Assembly (NCBI GenBank): GCA_017503305.1
Contig: JAFVTJ010000151.1
Span: 1-9,777 of the forward strand
Reading direction: 5' to 3'
DNA length: 9,777 bases
Origin: Clostridia bacterium
Lineage (GTDB): Bacteria; Bacillota_A; Clostridia; Oscillospirales; Acutalibacteraceae
A program made the translations under genes and the position numbers. The notes under the pieces are model-generated. The model worked only from the letters and a program-made list of their open reading frames with translations. It ran no database searches and was not told the DNA's origin. Shown here one piece after another: positions 1 through 8,887 of this stretch; position 1 is the stretch's first letter; the number at the start of each line of letters is the position of its first letter.

Positions 1-1551
1 AGCGGCATTTATACATTCTTCGTCGGTAGCGTCAAGTCGACCGTAACGGATATTTTCCATAACTGTGCCTGTAAACAAATTGGTATCCTGCAAAACAATA
101 CCTAAAGAACGGCGCAAATCAGACTTTTTAATTTTGTTAATGTTGATACCATCGTATCTGATTTTACCTTCTTCAATATCATAAAAACGGTTAATAAGAT
201 TGGTAATGGTGGTTTTACCCGCACCCGTAGCACCAACAAAGGCTACCTTTTGACCGGGTTTAGCATAAACGCTAACGTTCTTTAGAACCTGTCTACCCTC
301 TACGTAAGAGAAGTCAACATCAACCAATCGAACGTCGCCCTCAAGCTTAGTGTAGGTAAGTGTGCTGTCGTTATGGGGGTGTTTCCAAGCCCAAAGACCT
401 GTACGGTCAGCAGTTTCGGTAATATTGCCGTTTTCATCAATTTTAGCGTTAACCAAGGTTACGTAGCCATCATCAACCTCAGGCTCGGCGTCCATAAGCT
501 CAAACACACGCTCAGCACCCGCAAGACCCATTACAACCGAGTTTATTTGCTGTGATACCTGATTAACGTTACCTGTAAACTGCTTAGTCATATTAAGGAA
601 TGGAATTACAATACTAATGCTAAGCGCAGCACCCGAAAGACTTATATTAGGTACGTCAAGCAATAGCAAAAGACCGCCAACCGTTGCAATAATAACGTAA
701 AGTATATTACCTATATTCATATTTATAGGGCCTAAAATATTCGCATAGGAATGTGCGCGAACGGCATTATCGTAAAGCTCGTTATTAACCTTATCAAAAT
801 CTTCAAGTGATTTGTCCTCGTGACAAAAGACCTTAACAACCTTTTGGCCGTTCATCATTTCTTGAATGTAGCCCTCGGCTTTACCGATAGATTTTTGTTG
901 TCGCATAAAATATTTTGCCGAACCACCGCCAACCTTTTTAGTAACGGTAAAAAGGCAAAATACACCGCCCACTACCACCAAGGTAATCCAAATACTGTAG
1001 GACATCATTATAAAGAATACTGTTACTACAATAATACCCGCTTGTATAAGGGATGGAATAGACTGTGAAACAAGCTGACGAATGGAGTCGATATCATTAG
1101 TATAGTGACTCATAATATCGCCGTGCTTATTTGTGTCAAAATATTTTATAGGAAGGTTTTGCATCCTATCAAAAAGGGTTTTGCGAAGCTTACCCAAAAA
1201 GCCTTGGGTTATATAAGCCATTAACTGTGTATGTGCAAAAACCGATATTAGCGACACCAAATAAATTGTCGCCAAGGTTACGATTTTTGGAATTATAACA
1301 GTTTTGGCGCTTGCCCAGTTACCACTTAGAACGTATTCTTCAATTGCTGCTATAATCTGCTTGTTAAATATAGCGGGCAATGTTGCAACTACCGAAGAAA
1401 AAACAATACAAAACAGGGTTAGCGGTAATAATTTGGGGTAGCTTTCCCACAAAAGCTTTAAAGTACGCTTTAAAACTTGTCCGTTAAATTTGCGAACGGC
1501 AGGAACGCCCTTTGGCAGATTACGGGGCATATCGTTATTTGGTTTACTCAT
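1..1551 (-). CDS. ABC exporter half-transporter (permease + ATPase), second subunit, 3' end beyond window
   Basis: The reading frame is open from the ATG at 1551 to the left edge (517 codons, no stop), so the protein is C-terminally incomplete here. Residues about 40-345 form the transmembrane domain (hydrophobic stretches near 40-62, 85-108, 165-204, 280-320), followed by the nucleotide-binding domain with Walker A GATGAGKTT (440-448) and Q-loop Gln488. Signature, Walker B and H-loop lie outside the window. An extra segment of about 45 residues (361-405, with the motif TGLWAWKHPH) sits between membrane domain and ATPase; I recall such an insert from clostridial members of this family. The start overlaps the upstream transporter's stop by 8 nt (ATGAGTAA), and GGAGGTG at 1558-1564 lies 6 nt upstream. 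It is almost certainly the catalytically competent partner of the upstream half-transporter, forming a heterodimeric exporter in the cytoplasmic membrane. The substrate cannot be told from sequence; drug/toxic compound or peptide/lipid export is typical of MarR-linked pairs. Confidence 0.95.
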   Translation of the reverse strand, partial: MSKPNNDMPRNLPKGVPAVRKFNGQVLKRTLKLLWESYPKLLPLTLFCIVFSSVVATLPAIFNKQIIAAIEEYVLSGNWASAKTVIIPKIVTLATIYLVSLISVFAHTQLMAYITQGFLGKLRKTLFDRMQNLPIKYFDTNKHGDIMSHYTNDIDSIRQLVSQSIPSLIQAGIIVVTVFFIMMSYSIWITLVVVGGVFCLFTVTKKVGGGSAKYFMRQQKSIGKAEGYIQEMMNGQKVVKVFCHEDKSLEDFDKVNNELYDNAVRAHSYANILGPINMNIGNILYVIIATVGGLLLLLDVPNISLSGAALSISIVIPFLNMTKQFTGNVNQVSQQINSVVMGLAGAERVFELMDAEPEVDDGYVTLVNAKIDENGNITETADRTGLWAWKHPHNDSTLTYTKLEGDVRLVDVDFSYVEGRQVLKNVSVYAKPGQKVAFVGATGAGKTTITNLINRFYDIEEGKIRYDGININKIKKSDLRRSLGIVLQDTNLFTGTVMENIRYGRLDATDEECINAA

Positions 1552-3286
1552 CTTCCCCACCTCCGCTTGTTTGTTGTTCGTATACTTCACGGTAGATTTG
1601 ACTGCTTTCTAACAATTCGTTATGCTTGCCCATACTGTCAATTTTACCGTTGTTCATTACAATAATTAAATCGGCATCCTCAACCGATGCTATACGCTGT
1701 GCAATTATAATCTTAGTTGTTTCGGGGATAAACTCCTTAAAGCCTTTACGAATAAGGGCATCGGTCTTGGTGTCAACCGCACTTGTAGAGTCGTCCAAAA
1801 TTAAAATTTTCGGCTTTTTAAGAAGCGCACGCGCAATACAAAGTCTTTGTTTTTGTCCGCCCGAAACGTTGGTACCGCCCTGCTCAATATAAGTGTCGTA
1901 TCCATCAGCAAAGGTGGTAACAAATTCATCGGCTTGAGCCAACTTGCAAGCCTCGACAATTTCTTCATCGGTAGCGTTTTCGTTACCCCAACGCAAGTTA
2001 TCCTTAATAGTACCCGAAAAAAGCTCGTTCTTTTGAAGCACCATAGCAACGTTGTCACGAAGGGTTTTAATATCATATTCCCTAACATCTACACCGCCAA
2101 CTAAAACCGAGCCTTCGGTGGTATCGTAAAGGCGGGGTATCAACTGCACCAAGGAGGTCTTACTAGAACCTGTGCCGCCAATTACACCAACAGTCATACC
2201 CGCCTTAATTTCAAAGTCGATATTTTCAAGGGCAAATTTCTTTGCATCCTTATTATACTTAAAGCCAACGTTTTTAAATGTAATTCCACCGTCGGCAACA
2301 TTATAAATCGGGTTTTCGGGGTTTTTAAGGTTGGGTTCTTCGTTTAAAACTTCACATATACGCTTCATAGATTCAAGTGACATTGTAATCATTACGTAAA
2401 TCATTGAAAGCATCATAAGGGAGAACAAAATTTGAACACCGTAGGTAAGCATTGCCGAAATATGACCCACGTTTACAGTAAGACCCTTGCTTGAAATTAC
2501 AAGATAAGAGCCCAAGAACAAAATCATAACGGTGTTGAAATACATACAAAACTGCATTATTGGGGTGTTAAGCGCAACAATACGCTCGGCTTTGGTAAAA
2601 TCCCATGCAATACCGTCCGAAGCGGTGGCAAATTTTTGCTTTTCGTAATTTTCACGCGAAAAGCCCTTAACTACGCGCATTCCGCGAACGTTTTCTTCAA
2701 TAGACTCATTAAGCTTATCGTACTTCTTAAAAACGCGTCTGAATGCGGGCATAGCTTTTTTAGCAATAAGCAAAAGTCCAAAAATCAATACAGGTATTAC
2801 AACTACAAAGGAGGTTGCCAAAGCGCCACCCATTCTATAAGCCGTTATTACCGAGAAGGTAAATAACATGGGGCTGCGAATAGCTGTACGAATAATCATC
2901 ATATAAGACATTTGCACGTGGTTAATGTCTGTAGTGAGTCGGGTTACAAGCGAGGTGGAAGAAAACTTATCTATATTAGAAAAAGAAAAGCTTTGAATAC
3001 GCTCAAACATATCACGCCTAAGGTTTCTAGCAAAGCCGGAAGATGCTCTCGCGCAGGTAATGGCCGCAATAGATCCGCAAGCGAGCGATACTAGTGCCAA
3101 GACTATTAAAATTAAGCCGGTTTTAATAATTTCGGTTATATGTGCCCCTGCGTTTATGTTATTTATAAGTTCTGCCGTGGTTGAGGGAATCATAACCTCA
3201 ATCAAAACCTCACCCATAATGAATATTAGTGTTAAAATTGAAGGCAGTTTATTATCTCTTATACTTTTTGCTAAAGTTTTAATCAT
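1544..3286 (-). CDS. ABC exporter half-transporter (permease + degenerate ATPase), first subunit
   Basis: This 580-residue half-transporter has its six-helix membrane domain at about 15-305 and its ATPase domain at about 335-575. Visible motifs are a Walker A variant GGTGSSKT (370-377, Ser375 where Gly normally precedes the Lys), Q-loop Gln418, canonical signature VSGGQ (474-478), Walker B ILILDD (494-499, Asp499 in place of the catalytic Glu) and Gln530 in place of the switch histidine (AQRI rather than AHRL). In heterodimeric exporters of the TM287/288 and BmrC/D type, one subunit carries such a degenerate Walker B and switch while donating a good signature motif to the partner's active site. 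That is the role inferred here. The ATG at 3286 overlaps the marR stop by 8 nt (ATGATTAA), with GGAGG 6 nt upstream (3293-3297), so translation is probably coupled. Expression should follow the MarR-controlled promoter. Substrate unknown. Confidence 0.96.
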   Translation of the reverse strand: MIKTLAKSIRDNKLPSILTLIFIMGEVLIEVMIPSTTAELINNINAGAHITEIIKTGLILIVLALVSLACGSIAAITCARASSGFARNLRRDMFERIQSFSFSNIDKFSSTSLVTRLTTDINHVQMSYMMIIRTAIRSPMLFTFSVITAYRMGGALATSFVVVIPVLIFGLLLIAKKAMPAFRRVFKKYDKLNESIEENVRGMRVVKGFSRENYEKQKFATASDGIAWDFTKAERIVALNTPIMQFCMYFNTVMILFLGSYLVISSKGLTVNVGHISAMLTYGVQILFSLMMLSMIYVMITMSLESMKRICEVLNEEPNLKNPENPIYNVADGGITFKNVGFKYNKDAKKFALENIDFEIKAGMTVGVIGGTGSSKTSLVQLIPRLYDTTEGSVLVGGVDVREYDIKTLRDNVAMVLQKNELFSGTIKDNLRWGNENATDEEIVEACKLAQADEFVTTFADGYDTYIEQGGTNVSGGQKQRLCIARALLKKPKILILDDSTSAVDTKTDALIRKGFKEFIPETTKIIIAQRIASVEDADLIIVMNNGKIDSMGKHNELLESSQIYREVYEQQTSGGGEDE

Positions 3287-3725
3287 TGCTTTCCTCCATA
3301 TTTGCTATCAGCTTATCGGTAATTTTCAAAAAAGTTTCCGCTTCTTCGGCTGTTAAACCTTTTCTCAAGCGTTCTTCCCTTTCGTTTATACTGCGAAGCA
3401 CCGATTTGTGAATATTAATTGCTTTTTCTGTTAAAACGATTTTTTTAAGTCTGGCATCACTTTCTACGCTTTCCCTTTTAATAAAACCGTTTTGCTCCAT
3501 TGTTTTTAAAATATTACTGGCGGTTGAACGGCGAATTGAAAACTCGTTTTCAAAATCCTTTTGAAATATATCTTTATCGCTGTTATCAAAAAAATACGAA
3601 ATTGCCCAACCGTTTATACCCTTGGGCAATTCTATACCAAGCTCACATTTGCTTTTTTCAATATCACGCTTTAAAAGATTAGCCAAAATGCGAACCTTAA
3701 AACCAATATCGTTTCGCTCTTTCAT
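3279..3725 (-). CDS. MarR-family transcriptional regulator of the ABC exporter operon
   Basis: This 148-residue protein has the usual MarR length and layout: an N-terminal helical dimerisation region, a winged helix-turn-helix at about 50-99 (recognition helix around IRRSTASNILKTMEQNG, 64-80), the wing motif D90-A-R92-L-K-K followed by V-L-T (97-99), and C-terminal dimerisation helices (100-145). The DxRxK...LT wing is diagnostic of the family. It is the first gene of a three-gene operon with two ABC half-transporters and overlaps the next gene by 8 nt, the common arrangement for a ligand-responsive repressor of an efflux pump. The ATG at 3725 is preceded by GAGGTG (3730-3735). A palindrome on the predicted transcription start suggests autorepression. 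The inducing ligand is not deducible. Alternative: some MarR proteins act as activators, but the operator position argues for repression. Confidence 0.95.
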   Translation of the reverse strand: MKERNDIGFKVRILANLLKRDIEKSKCELGIELPKGINGWAISYFFDNSDKDIFQKDFENEFSIRRSTASNILKTMEQNGFIKRESVESDARLKKIVLTEKAINIHKSVLRSINEREERLRKGLTAEEAETFLKITDKLIANMEESND

Positions 3726-3846: not shown

Positions 3847-5379
3847 TTAACAAAGCGGTATAAGTATTGTTTTTTTATTTTCAAGCTCATCGCCTGCAAG
3901 GTTATTTATTGAAACAATTTCCTGCAAATTTGCATTGTATTTTCTTGCAATATTCCACACCTTTTCGCCCTTGCTTGCAAAACAAATAAGCATACCACCC
4001 TTTTTATTTTTAAAAAGCGGCTTATTAGTGTCAATTTCAATATCGGTAATAAGCGGTATATCATTGGTTTCATAAACGGTGCCCGTTATACAAAGCTCTA
4101 TCCTAACCTCTAAGCAATTTGCGCTTGTTATGGTATATCCCACGTTAACAATATCAATTTCCGTATTAGCCGATAAATTTAAACCTTCGCATTCGGTTTT
4201 GTGTTCAAACTCAAGTTCAACAGGCTTTTCGTAAAAAACAACGTTATCATTTTGGTCGCACACAACCATACCAATTAGCAATACTCCGCTAAGGCCAACC
4301 TTGCCATTTTCAAGCTTAACCTTTTTAGAACCTTTTTCGCACCAAATATCAATGACAGAAGCTATATTTTCGCTAAGCTCAATGCTTTTCTTTAACTGGC
4401 AGTTTTCTTTAAAGTTTTCACATATTTTTTTAAAAGAAAGGGTGTTTTTAACCACGTTGGTTTCAAACCTTGTAGAAAACGCATCTTCTATTATTGCAAT
4501 ATCGTTAACACAGTAGCTTTCACACTTAAGCAAAAGCTTTGCATTTAAAGAAAAGGCGTTGCATTCGCCATTAAAGGAAAGCGCTGGTCTAACCTCTAAA
4601 AAAGCAATTTCGCACTTGATATCACACTTGCAAAGCTCGGTAACGCCCGACATTTCAACAATTTGGCTAAACGGCAGTGTTGTTTTTAAAACCATTGGCG
4701 CCTTTACACCGTCCACACTATAAAGAACCGTTACCGCCATTTCGCCCTTTGCTACTATTTTATCATTTATAACCTTATGCTCGGTAATGCTGGGTACCGC
4801 ATCATACCTTAGCACTCGCAAAACTGTGGCTTGATTGTTGCTTAAAGGAATATCATCCTCTAATATCATAAGCTTTTCGCAATAACCCATTGGCACCGTT
4901 GCAGGCGCTACGGCGCGCTTTAACTGAATTTCAGTATTATCAAAATCTGCCACAATTTGATTAAAGCAACGCTTGAATGCCTTGATTTTTATGCTAACCG
5001 CACCGTGAATATCAATTTTTCTGCCGGTTATAGCGCGGCAGTTTATGTAATCGCACCCCACCGAGCAGGTCAAACTGCAATCATCCACCTCTGCCCCTAT
5101 TTCTTTAATTTTGCTAAAGGGATATGAATATTCATAAGAGCATAAATTATTTTCCTTGTCGCAATACAAAAGCGTAATACAAAGGTTTCCCTCTATTGTA
5201 ACGCTATTGCCGTTTATTCCCTTTGAAACAATAGTCGGCTTTGCCTTGCATTTAAAAATTTTTGATATATCGGGGCAATAATCAGGCAATAAAAAATCAA
5301 GGTCTATGGGCTGTTCTAAGGTTTCGCAAAAAATATTTTTATTAAAACACACTTCGGTTTTTAAGGGTTTGCTTTCCAT
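3847..5379 (-). CDS. SipL-like spore coat morphogenesis protein (SPOCS/DUF3794 repeats + LysM)
   Basis: This 510-residue protein has no signal peptide or membrane segment. Three related units can be picked out: about 8-140, 178-292 and a more divergent 335-440. The first two share a beta-rich core ending in PFSKI (87-91) and PFSQI (236-240). A LysM domain follows at about 463-509 (key stretches GEKVWNIARKY and IVSINNL, ending ILIPLC). DUF3794/SPOCS repeats with a C-terminal LysM are the layout of SipL of Clostridioides difficile, which binds SpoIVA and is needed to encase the forespore with coat; a mother-cell role at the forespore surface is therefore likely. The protein has 28 cysteines (about 5.5%), including its last residue, which could suit a cross-linked coat layer. 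It is monocistronic. GAGG (5387-5390) lies 7 nt before the ATG. No clear sporulation-sigma promoter was recognised. Alternatively it may be a SPOCS paralogue rather than the SipL orthologue. Confidence 0.85.
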   Translation of the reverse strand: MESKPLKTEVCFNKNIFCETLEQPIDLDFLLPDYCPDISKIFKCKAKPTIVSKGINGNSVTIEGNLCITLLYCDKENNLCSYEYSYPFSKIKEIGAEVDDCSLTCSVGCDYINCRAITGRKIDIHGAVSIKIKAFKRCFNQIVADFDNTEIQLKRAVAPATVPMGYCEKLMILEDDIPLSNNQATVLRVLRYDAVPSITEHKVINDKIVAKGEMAVTVLYSVDGVKAPMVLKTTLPFSQIVEMSGVTELCKCDIKCEIAFLEVRPALSFNGECNAFSLNAKLLLKCESYCVNDIAIIEDAFSTRFETNVVKNTLSFKKICENFKENCQLKKSIELSENIASVIDIWCEKGSKKVKLENGKVGLSGVLLIGMVVCDQNDNVVFYEKPVELEFEHKTECEGLNLSANTEIDIVNVGYTITSANCLEVRIELCITGTVYETNDIPLITDIEIDTNKPLFKNKKGGMLICFASKGEKVWNIARKYNANLQEIVSINNLAGDELENKKTILIPLC

Positions 5380-5475: not shown

Positions 5476-6138
5476 TTATATTCGCTTAACAATATTGTCT
5501 AAAGATTTAACAATGCAACCTTCGGGAATAACACCGCGAAGCGAGGTTAAAGGATAAACCGAAGTACCCTTGCCGATAACTGTACCGGGGTTTATAACAC
5601 AACCGCAGCCAATATCTGCCTTGTCGGCCAAAATGCCGCCGATTTTTCTGATACCGGTTTCAATATCGGTATCGCCGTGGATTACAACAGGCTTGCCGTC
5701 CGACTTTAAGTTGGAGCAAATTGAGCCTGCGCCCATGTGAGCAAAGTTGCCAAGTACCGAGTCACCAACGTAGTTATAATGCGGTACCTGAACGGTATTA
5801 AGAAGCACACAGTTTTTAAGCTCGCTTGAGTTACCGATTACACAACCGCTTCCTGTAATTACGTTACCACGAAGGAAAGCGCTGGGGCGAATTTCGGTAT
5901 TTGCGCCTATAATGGCGGGTGCTTCAATAACGGCGGAAGGATGAATTTTAACGTTTTCGCCAACCCAAACGCCATCGGCAATTTCGGTAAAGCCTTCAAG
6001 TCCGTTTTCAATAAGCTTTTTTATATATTCCTTAATTTTGGGTAACATTTCCCAAGGGTATTCGCATTCATCAAACAATTCAATAAGATAAGGTGTTTGG
6101 CAATCAAACAACTCCTTGGTTTTAATCTTTTTATTCAA
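5476..6138 (-). CDS. Left-handed beta-helix (hexapeptide) protein resembling the GlmU acetyltransferase domain
   Basis: This 220-residue protein has a short helical N-terminus (1-55) and then a left-handed parallel beta-helix (about 58-212) of hexapeptide repeats such as VWVGEN, AIIGAN and TVIGKG. No nucleotidyltransferase domain is present. Residues 101-138 align by eye with the acetyltransferase half of GlmU: Lys108, His120 and Tyr123 sit where E. coli GlmU has Lys351, His363 (catalytic) and Tyr366, followed by a GAG turn (136-138). GlmU's acetyltransferase makes GlcNAc-1-P from GlcN-1-P and acetyl-CoA, and the preceding gene is GlmM, which makes GlcN-1-P, so a role in that step is plausible. 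The alternative is transfer to another sugar phosphate. The start is TTG at 6138, overlapping the glmM stop by 8 nt (TTGAATAA), with AAGAGGT 7 nt upstream (6146-6152). No ATG occurs in frame before residue 31. Co-transcribed with glmM. Confidence 0.8.
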   Translation of the reverse strand: MNKKIKTKELFDCQTPYLIELFDECEYPWEMLPKIKEYIKKLIENGLEGFTEIADGVWVGENVKIHPSAVIEAPAIIGANTEIRPSAFLRGNVITGSGCVIGNSSELKNCVLLNTVQVPHYNYVGDSVLGNFAHMGAGSICSNLKSDGKPVVIHGDTDIETGIRKIGGILADKADIGCGCVINPGTVIGKGTSVYPLTSLRGVIPEGCIVKSLDNIVKRI

Positions 6139-7747
6139 CTGAATGACCTCTTTCTATAATGAAATTAACAAGGCGGTTAACGTATTCTTCGCAGTTTTCT
6201 TCGCTTTCAACCATTACGCGAACAACAGGCTCGGTACCGCTCTTGCGAAGCAATACTCTACCCTTGCCGTTAATAAGCTCTTCAACGGCCTTCTTCTCTT
6301 CTAAAATGGCTTCATCTTCAAATACTGCTTCCTTGCTCTTAACCCTTACGTTTTTGGTTATTTGGGGATAAAGCTTAACAGGTTTTGCAAGCTCGGCTAA
6401 GGTTGATTTGCTATCGCAAACCTCTTCGGTAACCATAATAGCGGTTAACAAGCCATCGCCTGTGGTAGCATATTTTTTAAGAATAATATGGCCCGATTGC
6501 TCGCCGCCTAACGAATAATCGTTATTTTGCATACTTTCGTAAACAAAGCGGTCGCCAACGTCGGTTTGAACACACTTAATACCCTCAGCCGCAAGACTGT
6601 TAATGAAACCGCTGTTGGACATAATAGTAGCAACAACTGTGTCATCATTAAGCATACCGCGTGATTTTAAGCGCTTGCCCAAAATATAAAGCATTTTGTC
6701 GCCGTCTACCTCGTTGCCGTTACCATCAACCGCAATACAACGGTCGCAGTCGCCGTCAAAGGCAAAGCCTAAATCTAAGTGATTTTCTTTAACCATTTGG
6801 CAAAGCTTTTCAATGTGTGTTGAACCACAACCCATATTTACGTTAAGGCCGTCGGGTGTGTCGCCAATAACCATAACCTTTGCGCCCAATGCGCCGAAAA
6901 CTGATCTTGCAATCATCCAAGAAGCACCGTTTGCGCAGTCAATGCCAATCCTTAAGTTCTTATAAGAATGTGAAGCCAAGGAGATAAGATATGCAACGTA
7001 GCGGTTTCTACCTGCAACGTAATCAATAATTTTACCTATATTAGACTTGGTAGCAAGGGGTAAATCCTTTTCTGCAACGCCTAAAGCCAAAAGGTCGCCA
7101 TCAAGATAATCTTCAATATAAGCAGTTGTGGTATCATCCAATTTTTCGCCGTAACGATTAATTACCTTAATGCCGTTATCGTAAAAAGGATTGTGAGAAG
7201 CGGTGATCATAATACCACAGTCAAAATCGTCCTGCTTTGTAACGTAAGAAACGCTGGGAGTAGTAGTAACGTGAAGCATATATGCATCAGCACCCGAAGC
7301 GGTAATACCGGCAACGAGAGAGTATTCTATCATATAGCTTGAAAGACGAGTGTCCTTACCAATTACTATGCGCGGGCGATAATCGGGATTTTGGCAACCC
7401 GAAAGCTTTGATGAAAAATACCAACCCAAAAATCTACCAACCTTATAGGCCTGTTCGCTTGTTAAGGTAACGTTTGCTTCGCCGCGGAAACCATCAGTAC
7501 CGAAGTAGCGATTTTTCTTCTTCTCGCCCTTTGGTGTGCACATAATTTCAACCTCGTCATGCAAAAGATCATCCGCCGAAACCGCAAACAAATTGCAAAG
7601 CATTAAAACCTTGTCAATTTGAGGTAGTGCTTGGTCCATTTCCCATTTTGAAACCGACTGACGCGAAACCGAAAGTCTTTCAGCAAGCTCTTCTTGAGAA
7701 ATATTTGCATTGTTTCTTAATTTATAAATTTTTTCACCGATTGTCAT
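6131..7747 (-). CDS. glmM: Phosphoglucosamine mutase GlmM with N-terminal XRE helix-turn-helix domain (fusion)
   Basis: GlmM interconverts GlcN-6-P and GlcN-1-P for peptidoglycan precursors. Residues 78-538 are a complete GlmM: opening RYFGTDGFRG (80-89), phosphoserine loop TASHNP (Ser184), metal loop DGDCDR (331-336), sugar loop GGEQSGH (414-420) and phosphate loop RKSGTEP (501-507). Residues 1-66 are a full Cro/C1-type HTH with recognition helix SVSRQSVSKWE (26-36), joined through a lysine-rich linker (70-79). Ordinary GlmM proteins of about 450 residues start just before the FGTDG motif, so this is an extra domain in one uninterrupted frame of 538 codons. The ATG at 7747 was chosen because AGGGAG lies 7 nt upstream (7755-7760); a TTG at 7789 in the same frame lacks a ribosome site. 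The product may bind DNA, perhaps its own promoter, but that is inference. The beta-helix gene follows with an 8-nt overlap. Confidence 0.93.
   Translation of the reverse strand: MTIGEKIYKLRNNANISQEELAERLSVSRQSVSKWEMDQALPQIDKVLMLCNLFAVSADDLLHDEVEIMCTPKGEKKKNRYFGTDGFRGEANVTLTSEQAYKVGRFLGWYFSSKLSGCQNPDYRPRIVIGKDTRLSSYMIEYSLVAGITASGADAYMLHVTTTPSVSYVTKQDDFDCGIMITASHNPFYDNGIKVINRYGEKLDDTTTAYIEDYLDGDLLALGVAEKDLPLATKSNIGKIIDYVAGRNRYVAYLISLASHSYKNLRIGIDCANGASWMIARSVFGALGAKVMVIGDTPDGLNVNMGCGSTHIEKLCQMVKENHLDLGFAFDGDCDRCIAVDGNGNEVDGDKMLYILGKRLKSRGMLNDDTVVATIMSNSGFINSLAAEGIKCVQTDVGDRFVYESMQNNDYSLGGEQSGHIILKKYATTGDGLLTAIMVTEEVCDSKSTLAELAKPVKLYPQITKNVRVKSKEAVFEDEAILEEKKAVEELINGKGRVLLRKSGTEPVVRVMVESEENCEEYVNRLVNFIIERGHSVE
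7541..7555 (-). promoter_or_regulatory. Candidate internal ribosome binding site and start codon at the HTH/GlmM junction
   Basis: Inside the fusion gene, GAGGT (7551-7555) stands 7 nt before an in-frame ATG (7541-7543, Met69). Initiation here would give a 470-residue GlmM without the HTH, with the FGTDG motif at residue 14, close to the start of normal GlmM proteins. The bases also encode DEVEIM in the fusion, so the match could be coincidental. Confidence 0.5.
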
Positions 7748-7785
7748 AATATAACTCCCTTTCAATCGATTAAAATTTTGAAATA

Positions 7786-7800
7786 GCAACCCACAGTTGC
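7786..7800. promoter_or_regulatory. Palindrome in the glmM leader, candidate operator
   Basis: GCAAC-CCACA-GTTGC has 5-bp inverted arms and a 5-bp centre. It lies between the predicted glmM transcription start (near 7807) and the ribosome binding site. Short dyads of this size are typical for XRE-type regulators, so the HTH of the downstream fusion is the obvious candidate reader. A weak RNA hairpin or chance are the alternatives. Confidence 0.4.
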
Positions 7801-7813
7801 ACTTTTCATTTAG

Positions 7814-7842
7814 ATTTTACCACTTTCCGCGCAAAAAAGCAA
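7814..7842 (-). promoter_or_regulatory. Probable sigma-A promoter of glmM
   Basis: On the minus strand the -35 box is TTGCTT (7837-7842) and the -10 box TAAAAT (7814-7819) with 17 bp between them. The -10 is a 5/6 match and the -35 only 3/6. It predicts a 5' leader of about 60 nt before the ATG at 7747. Confidence 0.65.
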
Positions 7843-7940
7843 CAAAAATTTTAAATTCTGCAATTTTTAGTTTACATTTATAGTATATTTTGAAAAATTC
7901 ACACTATTCCTATCTATTTTGGCATATCACTTTTAAATTT

Positions 7941-8030: not shown

Positions 8031-8468
8031 GTGAAATTTAAACTGATTATTGACAATAAAAAAGAAGAGGAAATTATAATAACCGCAAAGGAGCGCTCAA
8101 CTCTTATTGAGCAAATCGAGTCGCTTGTTATGGAATATTCGGGTCAAGATAAAATTCCGGCCTATACCGAAGACGAAATAACAAAGCTTTTAATAAACGA
8201 AATTGAATGCATTACGGTAATTGACGGTAAAACATACGCAATATATAAGGATGCAAAACATTACCGTTTAAAACAACGGCTTTTTGAAATTGAAAAGTTG
8301 TTGCCTTCAAGCTTTATTAAAATCAACAAAAGCAGTATCGCGAATGAAACTAAAATCGACCGCTTTAAAGCAAGCTTTAGCGGTGCGGTTGATGCCGTTT
8401 TTAAGTGCGGTTTTACCGATTACGTTTCAAGGCGATGCTTTGCCGAAATTAAAAGGAGGTATAAATAA
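8031..8468 (+). CDS. Stand-alone LytTR-domain DNA-binding protein
   Basis: The protein has 145 residues and no receiver domain. Residues about 1-40 are a charged N-terminal segment, and 45-145 form the LytTR DNA-binding domain. Recognisable stretches are the strands around ITVIDGKTYAIY (61-72), FIKINKSSIAN (95-105), which matches the family's F-x-[RK]-I-[HN]-[RK]-S pattern, and the closing VSRRCFAEIKRRY (132-144). It is a transcription factor that binds direct repeats, and such a repeat lies upstream of its own promoter. The start codon is GTG at 8031, supported by GGAGGTG (8019-8025) 5 nt away. It overlaps by one base (TAATG) with a DUF3021 membrane protein gene. LytTR regulators paired with small membrane proteins are known as LytTR regulatory systems in streptococci (HdrRM, BrsRM), where the membrane protein restrains the regulator. 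The same logic is inferred here. Target genes beyond its own operon are unknown. Confidence 0.92.
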   Translation: MKFKLIIDNKKEEEIIITAKERSTLIEQIESLVMEYSGQDKIPAYTEDEITKLLINEIECITVIDGKTYAIYKDAKHYRLKQRLFEIEKLLPSSFIKINKSSIANETKIDRFKASFSGAVDAVFKCGFTDYVSRRCFAEIKRRYK

Positions 8469-8887
8469 TGAAAAAATTTTGTTTGGAATTTTTAAAAAGA
8501 GGCTTACTCGCCGCTTGGGGTGGACCTTTTATTTTGGCAATTATTTACGGTATTTTAGGTGCTAACGGCACAGTTACCGCTCTCACACCGAGTGAAGTTT
8601 GCAAAGGCATTTTATCCATCACTTTAATGGCGTTTATTGCCGCAGGTATACAGACGATTTATCAGTTTGAACGCTTACCCTTAATATCGGCAATACTGAT
8701 TCACGGCGCAGTTTTATATTTAGATTACCTTATAATGTATTTAATGAATGATTGGATTCCTCGTAACCTTGAAAGCCTATCAATTTTCACAATTATTTTC
8801 ATCGTAGGATACGTTTTAATTTGGGTTGGAATTTATCTTTTCACCAAGCGCAAAACCGATAGCTTAAATAAAAAACTAAAAAACTAA
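8468..8887 (+). CDS. DUF3021-type four-helix membrane protein, partner of the LytTR regulator
   Basis: This 139-residue integral membrane protein has four predicted transmembrane helices (about 12-31, 47-65, 71-94, 104-126), a short basic N-terminus (MKKFCLEFLKRG) and a lysine-rich cytoplasmic tail (127-139). Size, topology and position directly after a stand-alone LytTR gene match DUF3021 proteins, which commonly occur in this pair. The ATG at 8468 shares one base with the preceding stop (TAATG), and a near-ideal AAGGAGGT (8453-8460) lies 7 nt upstream, so it should be translated efficiently and coupled. By analogy with HdrM/BrsM of streptococci it may hold the LytTR protein inactive at the membrane or sense envelope conditions; this is inference and no ligand-binding motif is evident. 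A terminator follows, closing a two-gene operon. Confidence 0.85.
   Translation: MKKFCLEFLKRGLLAAWGGPFILAIIYGILGANGTVTALTPSEVCKGILSITLMAFIAAGIQTIYQFERLPLISAILIHGAVLYLDYLIMYLMNDWIPRNLESLSIFTIIFIVGYVLIWVGIYLFTKRKTDSLNKKLKN

Follow-up and report, generated by a model that had tools for sequence, protein, structure and literature searches.

How far can an enzyme of cell wall precursor synthesis be in charge of its own production? This question is raised by a gene on the minus strand of the window, i.e. of the whole 9,777-nucleotide stretch of DNA analysed here, where a helix-turn-helix (HTH) domain of the XRE type and phosphoglucosamine mutase (GlmM) are encoded as one protein (Table 1). Among the known controls of UDP-GlcNAc supply are the glmS ribozyme, acting on GlmS, and binding of GlmM to the c-di-AMP synthase CdaA. 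Complexes of GlmM with CdaA, judging by entry titles, are present in the PDB.

Table 1. Features of the locus, in nucleotide positions of the window
Feature	Position	Strand	Basis and remarks
XRE-GlmM fusion gene	6131..7747	-	538 aa, ATG at 7747, stop at 6131; translation, Pfam, NCBIfam
HTH domain, residues 1-66	7550..7747	-	HTH_3 at residues 7-61, Pfam, E 8.8e-13
Putative recognition helix RQSVSKWE, residues 29-36	7640..7663	-	role assigned by analogy with HTH folds
Variable linker, residues 67-79	7511..7549	-	low identity and low pLDDT
Complete GlmM, residues 80-538	6134..7510	-	TIGR01455 above cut-off and fold match
Predicted phosphoserine Ser184	7196-7198	-	within the GlmM part
Shine-Dalgarno-like GGGAG	7755-7759	-	read from sequence
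Left-handed beta-helix protein, GlcN-1-P acetyltransferase-like	5476..6138	-	Hexapep; GlmU-type models
Putative weak promoter-like pair TTGCTT - 17 nt - TAAAAT	7814..7842	-	proposed; not reported by the consensus scan
Proposed self-operator O1	7786..7800	.	minus strand GCAACTGTGGGTTGC, starts 53 nt before ATG

HTH domain and complete GlmM in one reading frame

A sequence-only reading of the window had claimed that a complete Cro/C1-type HTH (residues 1-66) is joined in one uninterrupted frame to a full GlmM, and translation, Pfam and NCBIfam agree with it in this part. The fusion frame contains 0 internal stops on translation, neither a stop codon nor a frameshift was seen at the junction, where they would have separated the two halves, and Pfam places PGM_PMM domains I-IV at residues 80-520. 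A longer version of 552 aa initiated from TTG at 7789 was rejected in favour of the ATG at 7747, because relatives align at this codon (MTIGEK); a ribosome-site-like GGGAG is also present at 7755-7759. An assembly artefact at the junction was rejected as well: other records contain fusions both nearly identical and distant, and among the database matches listed six proteins are 99% identical to the fusion over all 538 residues. The HTH-GlmM fusion is confirmed as real.

The enzyme half was assigned to the GlmM equivalog family (NCBIfam TIGR01455, 496.2 bits versus the cut-off of 447.55). Motifs [TS]ASHNP with Ser184, DGDxDR, GExSGH (with Q417 in 44) and SGTEP are each kept in 49 of 49 aligned fusions, so the four active-site loops described as intact in the window are intact across the alignment; they correspond to the phosphoserine, Mg, sugar-binding and phosphate-binding loops. 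The AlphaFold2 model, built with 49 fusion sequences as input, has a mean pLDDT of 87.6 and a complete GlmM fold, while the values drop below 50 at linker residues 72-75. Its top PDB matches are GlmM of B. subtilis, B. anthracis and S. aureus, the best fold match of the GlmM part being the B. subtilis enzyme (7ojr, TMt 0.92), and the best 50 of 91 PDB matches with E up to 0.001 include none whose description mentions a fusion. Family, motifs and predicted fold make it very likely that the fusion functions as a GlmM. In 20 of 23 fusion genomes no other GlmM scores above the cut-off; as most of these genomes are MAGs whose completeness is not stated, all claims of absence made from them are limited. 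A second, plain GlmM above the cut-off was found in the other three (G005, G010 and G014), and G004 contains a full-length plain GlmM with 419.5 bits, i.e. below the cut-off.

For the HTH domain the model predicts five helices (residues 3-13, 18-25, 29-36, 44-54 and 58-62) with pLDDT of 85-93 across the first six ten-residue blocks. Residues R29, Q30, S33, W35 and E36 are invariant in 49 aligned fusions. Mean pairwise identity of the recognition helix (residues 28-36) reaches 93%, which is above both the whole HTH (62%) and the enzyme body (69%), while that of the linker (67-78) is only 19%.

Distribution and phylogeny of fused genes

Two protein searches were carried out, with residues 1-110 and with the whole fusion as queries. 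Among the best 120 matches of each search, which gave 189 distinct proteins, both HTH and mutase domains were present in all 189 (one of them, P0118, is a 301-aa piece), and the true size of the family exceeds this number. The case that would have spoken against the fusion, relatives always having the two parts in separate genes, was not observed, apart from a few HTH-less relatives (L045, L048 and L049), and the architecture, which the sequence-only reading suggested looking up in databases, turned out to be common there and so not unique to the window. Names given by their own sources to three of the listed proteins are all phosphoglucosamine mutase.

Scanning of contigs representing one genome per species yielded 80 loci. 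Sixty of them were translated, giving 54 full-length fusions and 6 HTH-less genes; L019 is a fusion cut by the contig end and was excluded from promoter counts. In the remaining 19 loci the matches start at residues 73-80 with no more than 23 in-frame residues before them, leaving no HTH; one of these loci (L062) ends at a contig edge with 30 nt of upstream DNA and stays outside any judgement on promoters. The fusion-bearing MAGs carry labels such as Clostridia, Oscillospiraceae, Lachnospiraceae, Bacillales and Erysipelotrichaceae, and many are named after samples from ruminant or other animal guts. Since the survey with TIGR01455, which returned best matches only, could not separate fused from plain genes, evenly drawn genomes of two classes were surveyed with an N-terminal profile. 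Full-length fusions were registered in 15 of 391 genomes from the class of G007 (the 16th match covers residues 1-80 only) and in 9 of 395 genomes from the class of G020 (three more matches cover only residues 1-79 or 1-77); by record labels the former class appears to be Clostridia-like and the latter Bacilli-like.

A rapid tree built on the GlmM part (80 rows, with SH-aLRT as the only support measure) requires three changes of the fused state, and all fusions except L052 fall into one clade (97), within which 16 Bacilli-type fusions form a single group (100). L052 is a long branch outside the fusion clade, and its placement is unsure. The HTH-less L045 and the pair L048/L049 nest among fusions and are apparent secondary losses of the HTH.

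Palindromic candidate operator at the fusion promoters

Side-by-side comparison of 5' regions revealed, by eye, an inverted repeat GCAACYNNNRGTTGC of the type GCAAC-N5-GTTGC, located at 7786-7800 in the window. Within 400 bp upstream of 55 fusions (54 loci and the window) the palindrome is exact in 40 cases, has one mismatch in 2, two in 3 and more in 10, all of the last being Bacilli-type. In two loci from genomes also containing plain GlmM (L020 and L027) only two-mismatch sites were found. Throughout the 80 loci the exact pattern occurs upstream of fusion genes only: it is present in 0 of 25 HTH-less glmM loci, and in the 24 of them having upstream DNA the best match carries at least three mismatches. 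The site is absent from L045, L048 and L049 despite their nesting among fusions, and no exact site occurs on the contigs carrying the plain second glmM genes of G005, G010 and G014. A looser pattern, with inner arms kept and both flanking and outer bases free, added two off-promoter matches, in L029 and L052.

Since these very loci were the ones on which the pattern had been spotted by eye, held-out fusion genomes served as a test. They are relatives of the first set, yet free of by-eye selection. In 12 of 13 genomes drawn later the site is exact and lies 90-123 nt before ATG; in 11 of these 12 it is the sole copy in the genome, while G347 has three. The 13th locus (L172) has one mismatch and repeats L005, with the same protein start, promoter sequence and length of contig.

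Bacilli-type fusions are less uniform. The exact palindrome was found in 5 of 16 loci of the first set (L037-L040 and L044) and in 4 of 8 held-out loci (L181-L184, at -28 to -30), where L184 repeats L039. In the other held-out loci we detected one mismatch (L185), intact arms with a different flanking base (L188), a degenerate site (L187) and another repeat, GTAAA-N6-TTTAC (L186); the latter was found with a second pattern, while L185, L187 and L188 were read by eye. In the first Bacilli-type set GTAAA-N6-TTTAC is located 80-93 nt upstream in five loci, at -150 in a sixth and, as an exact copy, nowhere else among the 25 loci checked. Four of these six loci have Leu instead of Val at helix position 32, which may mark a shift of binding specificity; L055 and L057 also have Leu at this position, with no exact copy of the second repeat.

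Since the repeat is conserved together with the HTH and absent without it, self-directed DNA binding has backing from the comparison of genomes. The earlier suggestion that the fusion is a trigger enzyme binding within 7748-7860 and governing wall-precursor genes thus holds in part: a conserved repeat does lie in this region and disappears with the HTH, while neither an extension to wall-precursor genes generally nor a coupling with amino-sugar flux found support. Autoregulatory binding of the fusion to DNA can be assumed with fair confidence, and the enzyme probably controls its own production. As a whole, an arrangement resembling that of BirA, in which GlmM would autoregulate its operon by means of its own operator-reading HTH, appears to us quite likely. 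What weakens this self-operator reading is the variety of Bacilli-type sites (GTAAA-N6-TTTAC in some, near matches or nothing clear in others), the two mismatches carried by each of L020 and L027, and XRE proteins with the same helix, which might occupy the site in genomes having them.

Genomic context and the amino-sugar pathway

The start of the acetyltransferase-like gene overlaps the end of the fusion gene, and the two therefore probably belong to one operon. GlmU-type models match its product with their acetyltransferase portion, each scoring below its cut-off, and a gene of this kind directly follows the fusion in 46 of 53 loci with room for it, the window included. NagB is encoded within reach downstream of the fusion in 22 of 47 loci. 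The window has a SipL/LysM gene and no nagB at that place, and in L052 GlmS, in place of NagB, follows the fusion.

A set of 25 genomes, 23 with the fusion and 2 HTH-less, which is weighted to relatives of the window, was compared with 14 controls. Bifunctional GlmU above the cut-off was found in 0 of 25 versus 9 of 14, GlmS above the cut-off in 5 of 25 versus 14 of 14, the glmS ribozyme in 0 of 25 versus 2 of 14, NagB in 22 of 25 versus 4 of 14 and CdaA in 16 of 25 versus 6 of 14 (in G018 cdaA is found on the strand of the fusion, about 3 kb upstream of it). With GlmU missing, its acetyltransferase step may be provided by the acetyltransferase-like gene. GlmS above the cut-off is missing from 18 of 23 fusion genomes of this first set, and likewise from both HTH-less ones (G024 and G025). 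In the even draw it is missing from 8 of 15 fusion genomes and 92 of 376 others, being present in 7 and 284, respectively; Fisher p of 0.029, uncorrected for kinship, can serve only as a guide, given that these genomes are mostly MAGs, related to one another, with no more than three candidates scored per genome. Thus the absence of GlmS as a rule for fusion genomes, suggested by the first set, was weakened by the even draw and rejected: the loss of GlmS is enriched among fusion genomes without being general. According to a study on Akkermansia, its lone NagB could not form GlcN6P at physiological conditions, and GlcNAc is needed (PMC5902328). For this reason we do not claim NagB as an anabolic replacement of GlmS; it may equally divert scavenged GlcN-6-P to glycolysis.

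This context bears on the possibility that the fusion is a trigger enzyme, whose DNA binding would be switched by GlcN-6-P, GlcN-1-P, Glc-1,6-bisphosphate or phosphorylation of Ser184, so that operon expression would be set by amino-sugar supply and not by the glmS ribozyme. Several features are in line with such switching: the HTH is fused close to FGTDGFRG at the N-terminus of the enzyme, the operon of many relatives includes neighbouring amino-sugar steps (nagB or, in L052, glmS), the ribozyme is absent and GlmS is frequently lacking in both draws. The variable, unconserved linker, predicted to be flexible, does not speak for tight allosteric coupling, and GlmS is retained by nearly half of the evenly drawn fusion genomes and missing from the two HTH-less ones. 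On balance we regard this switching as conceivable, with the odds somewhat against it. Slightly more doubtful is, for a set of uncultured gut Firmicutes, a complete wall amino-sugar feedback located at GlmM, which, being often the sole GlmM of a cell having neither GlmS nor the ribozyme, would sense sugar phosphates and switch a single self-operator. Control by such a sensor of glmM, the acetyltransferase gene and, where present, nagB can be put forward only with the same reserve.

Promoter layout and the sign of control

The promoter-like pair proposed for the window would place the operator just after the transcription start. For 34 loci with an exact site at least 80 nt from ATG another arrangement is typical. 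In 27 of these promoters a second, weaker site, taken as the best match within 18-27 bp, starts 22-23 bp after the first one. When every position was scored, strong second matches (7 or 8 of 8) numbered 21 at offsets 22-24 and 4 in all the rest of the range 15 to 59. In 21 of 34 promoters the best -10 hexamer has its first base 60-61 nt beyond that of the first site, with ties broken towards that region. In this common layout the first site would be near -66 and the weaker second one near -43, which leaves the sign of regulation ambiguous.

At the lambda promoter PRM cI bound to OR1 and OR2 activates transcription, and positions near -66 and -43 are similar. By this analogy dimers of the fusion might recruit RNA polymerase and so activate their own synthesis. 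The fixed geometry of the two sites and of the -10 element agrees with such positive autoregulation, but the -10 search was biased by its tie-breaking towards the expected place, and in the window, L037-L040 and L181-L184 the site, as read by eye, is downstream of the likely -10. We consider activation unlikely. Since the site follows the likely -10 in these loci, repression can be argued for and is the likelier sign of control.

Other copies of the palindrome

The exact pattern occurs 37 times over the 25 genomes, while its control, the pattern written backwards, occurs 5 times; 22 genomes hold 1-4 exact sites each. Eighteen of the 37 are located at the fusion promoter, one more is a second site there (G002), 17 lie elsewhere and one (G014, C86) has no clear target. 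The 17 comprise seven sites before XRE genes, seven inside ORFs and three other intergenic ones. Two of the within-ORF sites belong to a lon-like gene, and the ORF of L115 may be spurious. A broad regulon of wall genes found no support in this set, and the regulon, as predicted, comes down essentially to the operon that encodes the fusion.

In front of the seven free-standing XRE genes, whose products have the helix [ST]RQ[SA][VI]SKWE, the palindrome is situated 95-137 nt before ATG. These regulators resemble the fusion in the kind of recognition helix, in the palindrome and in its distance from the start codon, but no enzyme domain was seen in them and several, unlike the fusion, end in hydrophobic, membrane-like segments, as judged by eye. 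Co-occurrence of this helix class and the palindrome independently of GlmM supports direct recognition of the palindrome by the helix. Possibly an XRE gene was taken over by the fusion along with the promoter of that gene.

The same free-standing genes, with both helix and site in some genomes, make one ask whether the palindrome belongs to another XRE repressor, the fused HTH being only a tether or a relic. The exact site is single and located at the fusion in nearly all held-out genomes with an exact copy, it is missing where the HTH is missing, and no whole domain of the fusion is as conserved as the recognition helix, which makes such ownership very improbable. Least credible of all is the idea that the repeat is a terminator or RNA hairpin and no protein site: the scan does flag 7786-7800 as terminator-like on the plus strand, but the arms are identical in letters across distant species with a variable centre, a second copy stands at a fixed distance, no Rfam family matched at fusion promoters in the six sources searched, and in the common layout the repeat would not be in the transcript because it is upstream of the likely promoter.

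Discussion

The autoregulatory reading preferred here can be formulated as follows. Two chains of the fusion would bind GCAAC-N5-GTTGC at their own promoter via the HTH and adjust expression of their operon, i.e. of the fusion, the acetyltransferase-like gene and, in many relatives other than the window, nagB. Where the site is at or just after the likely start of transcription (the window, L037-L040 and L181-L184), the bound protein would prevent transcription, so that autoregulation would be negative. In the majority of the remaining loci the strong site near -66 and the weaker one near -43 might serve either cooperative repression or activation. The state of the enzyme (its substrate, Glc-1,6-bisphosphate or the phosphoserine) may further modulate binding.

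Several known systems are comparable. NadR combines an HTH with NMN adenylyltransferase and ribosylnicotinamide kinase and regulates the same pathway; like the fusion, it has an HTH joined to metabolic enzyme domains, and it differs in enzyme fold and regulon. Plain GlmM of Firmicutes (B. subtilis, 7ojr) has the family assignment above the cut-off and the fold in common with the fusion, but has no HTH, and GCAAC-N5-GTTGC is absent from 24 assessable HTH-less relatives. As in trigger enzymes, enzymatic and DNA-binding parts are found here in one chain with a predicted site at genes of the pathway. Group II BirA is reported to combine ligase activity with regulation of related genes by means of an N-terminal DNA-binding HTH, while group I biotin protein ligases are devoid of the HTH (PMC4016012, PMC6391492). 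The pair of HTH-GlmM and plain GlmM parallels groups II and I. Unlike BirA, the fusion has an unrelated enzyme from an unrelated pathway, an HTH of the XRE type and its own operon as the predicted target, and there is no biotin ligase catalytic domain among its Pfam matches. At the level of abstract openings, open-licence literature gave no recognisable description of an HTH-GlmM fusion. The architecture itself is already common in databases; the candidate operator in the fusion promoter is new here.

Supply of UDP-GlcNAc must match wall growth, and an autoregulated GlmM, if it does operate as proposed, would add another point of control, acting through a defined operator of 15 bp. In that case the BirA type of enzyme-repressor would extend to an enzyme of cell wall precursor synthesis, and a function would be added to a widespread family whose members, where named, are named only phosphoglucosamine mutase. 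The proposed assignment of helix to operator would also apply to a class of XRE proteins that occurs outside the fusion as well.

Candidate operators at and beyond the fusion promoter

The inverted repeat GCAAC-N5-GTTGC, proposed as the self-operator of the fusion, is a candidate for a general operator of XRE regulators sharing the fusion's kind of recognition helix (the SRQ-SKWE class). A second GlmM, devoid of HTH and scoring above the TIGR01455 cut-off, is present in three genomes. In two of them, G010 (locus L020) and G014 (locus L027), the candidate fusion operators were registered only as two-mismatch variants, as if selection on them were relaxed.

The palindrome is common to free-standing XRE regulators at loci L116, L117, L111, L107 and L105, several of which carry hydrophobic segments at the C-terminal end. 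Extra copies were found at L104 (site 2123) and L113 (site 1226) near genes resembling M20-type peptidases/amidohydrolases, as judged by eye from sequence.

The HTH of the fusion is possibly also carried by another long protein: G594:C15:16972-17202 matches the HTH profile over residues 1-77 only, within an open frame of 524 aa having no GlmM start.

Genomic and metabolic context

Genes around the fusion operon registered by domain scan
Feature	Window position	Strand	Placement
SipL/SPOCS-domain protein, LysM domain at C-terminus	3847-5379	-	directly downstream of GlmM operon
LytTR-domain gene, then DUF3021 gene (small pair)	8031-8887	+	divergent, opposite fusion promoter
MarR-type regulator, then ABC transporter gene	1544-3725	-	

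Since SipL is a spore-coat protein, the SipL-type gene would suggest a spore-forming lineage.

Among 25 genomes, 23 with the fusion and two HTH-less, GlmS was found in five; neither bifunctional GlmU above the cut-off nor the glmS ribozyme was detected in any. The amino-sugar route looks remodelled in this set, and dependence on GlcNAc is possible.
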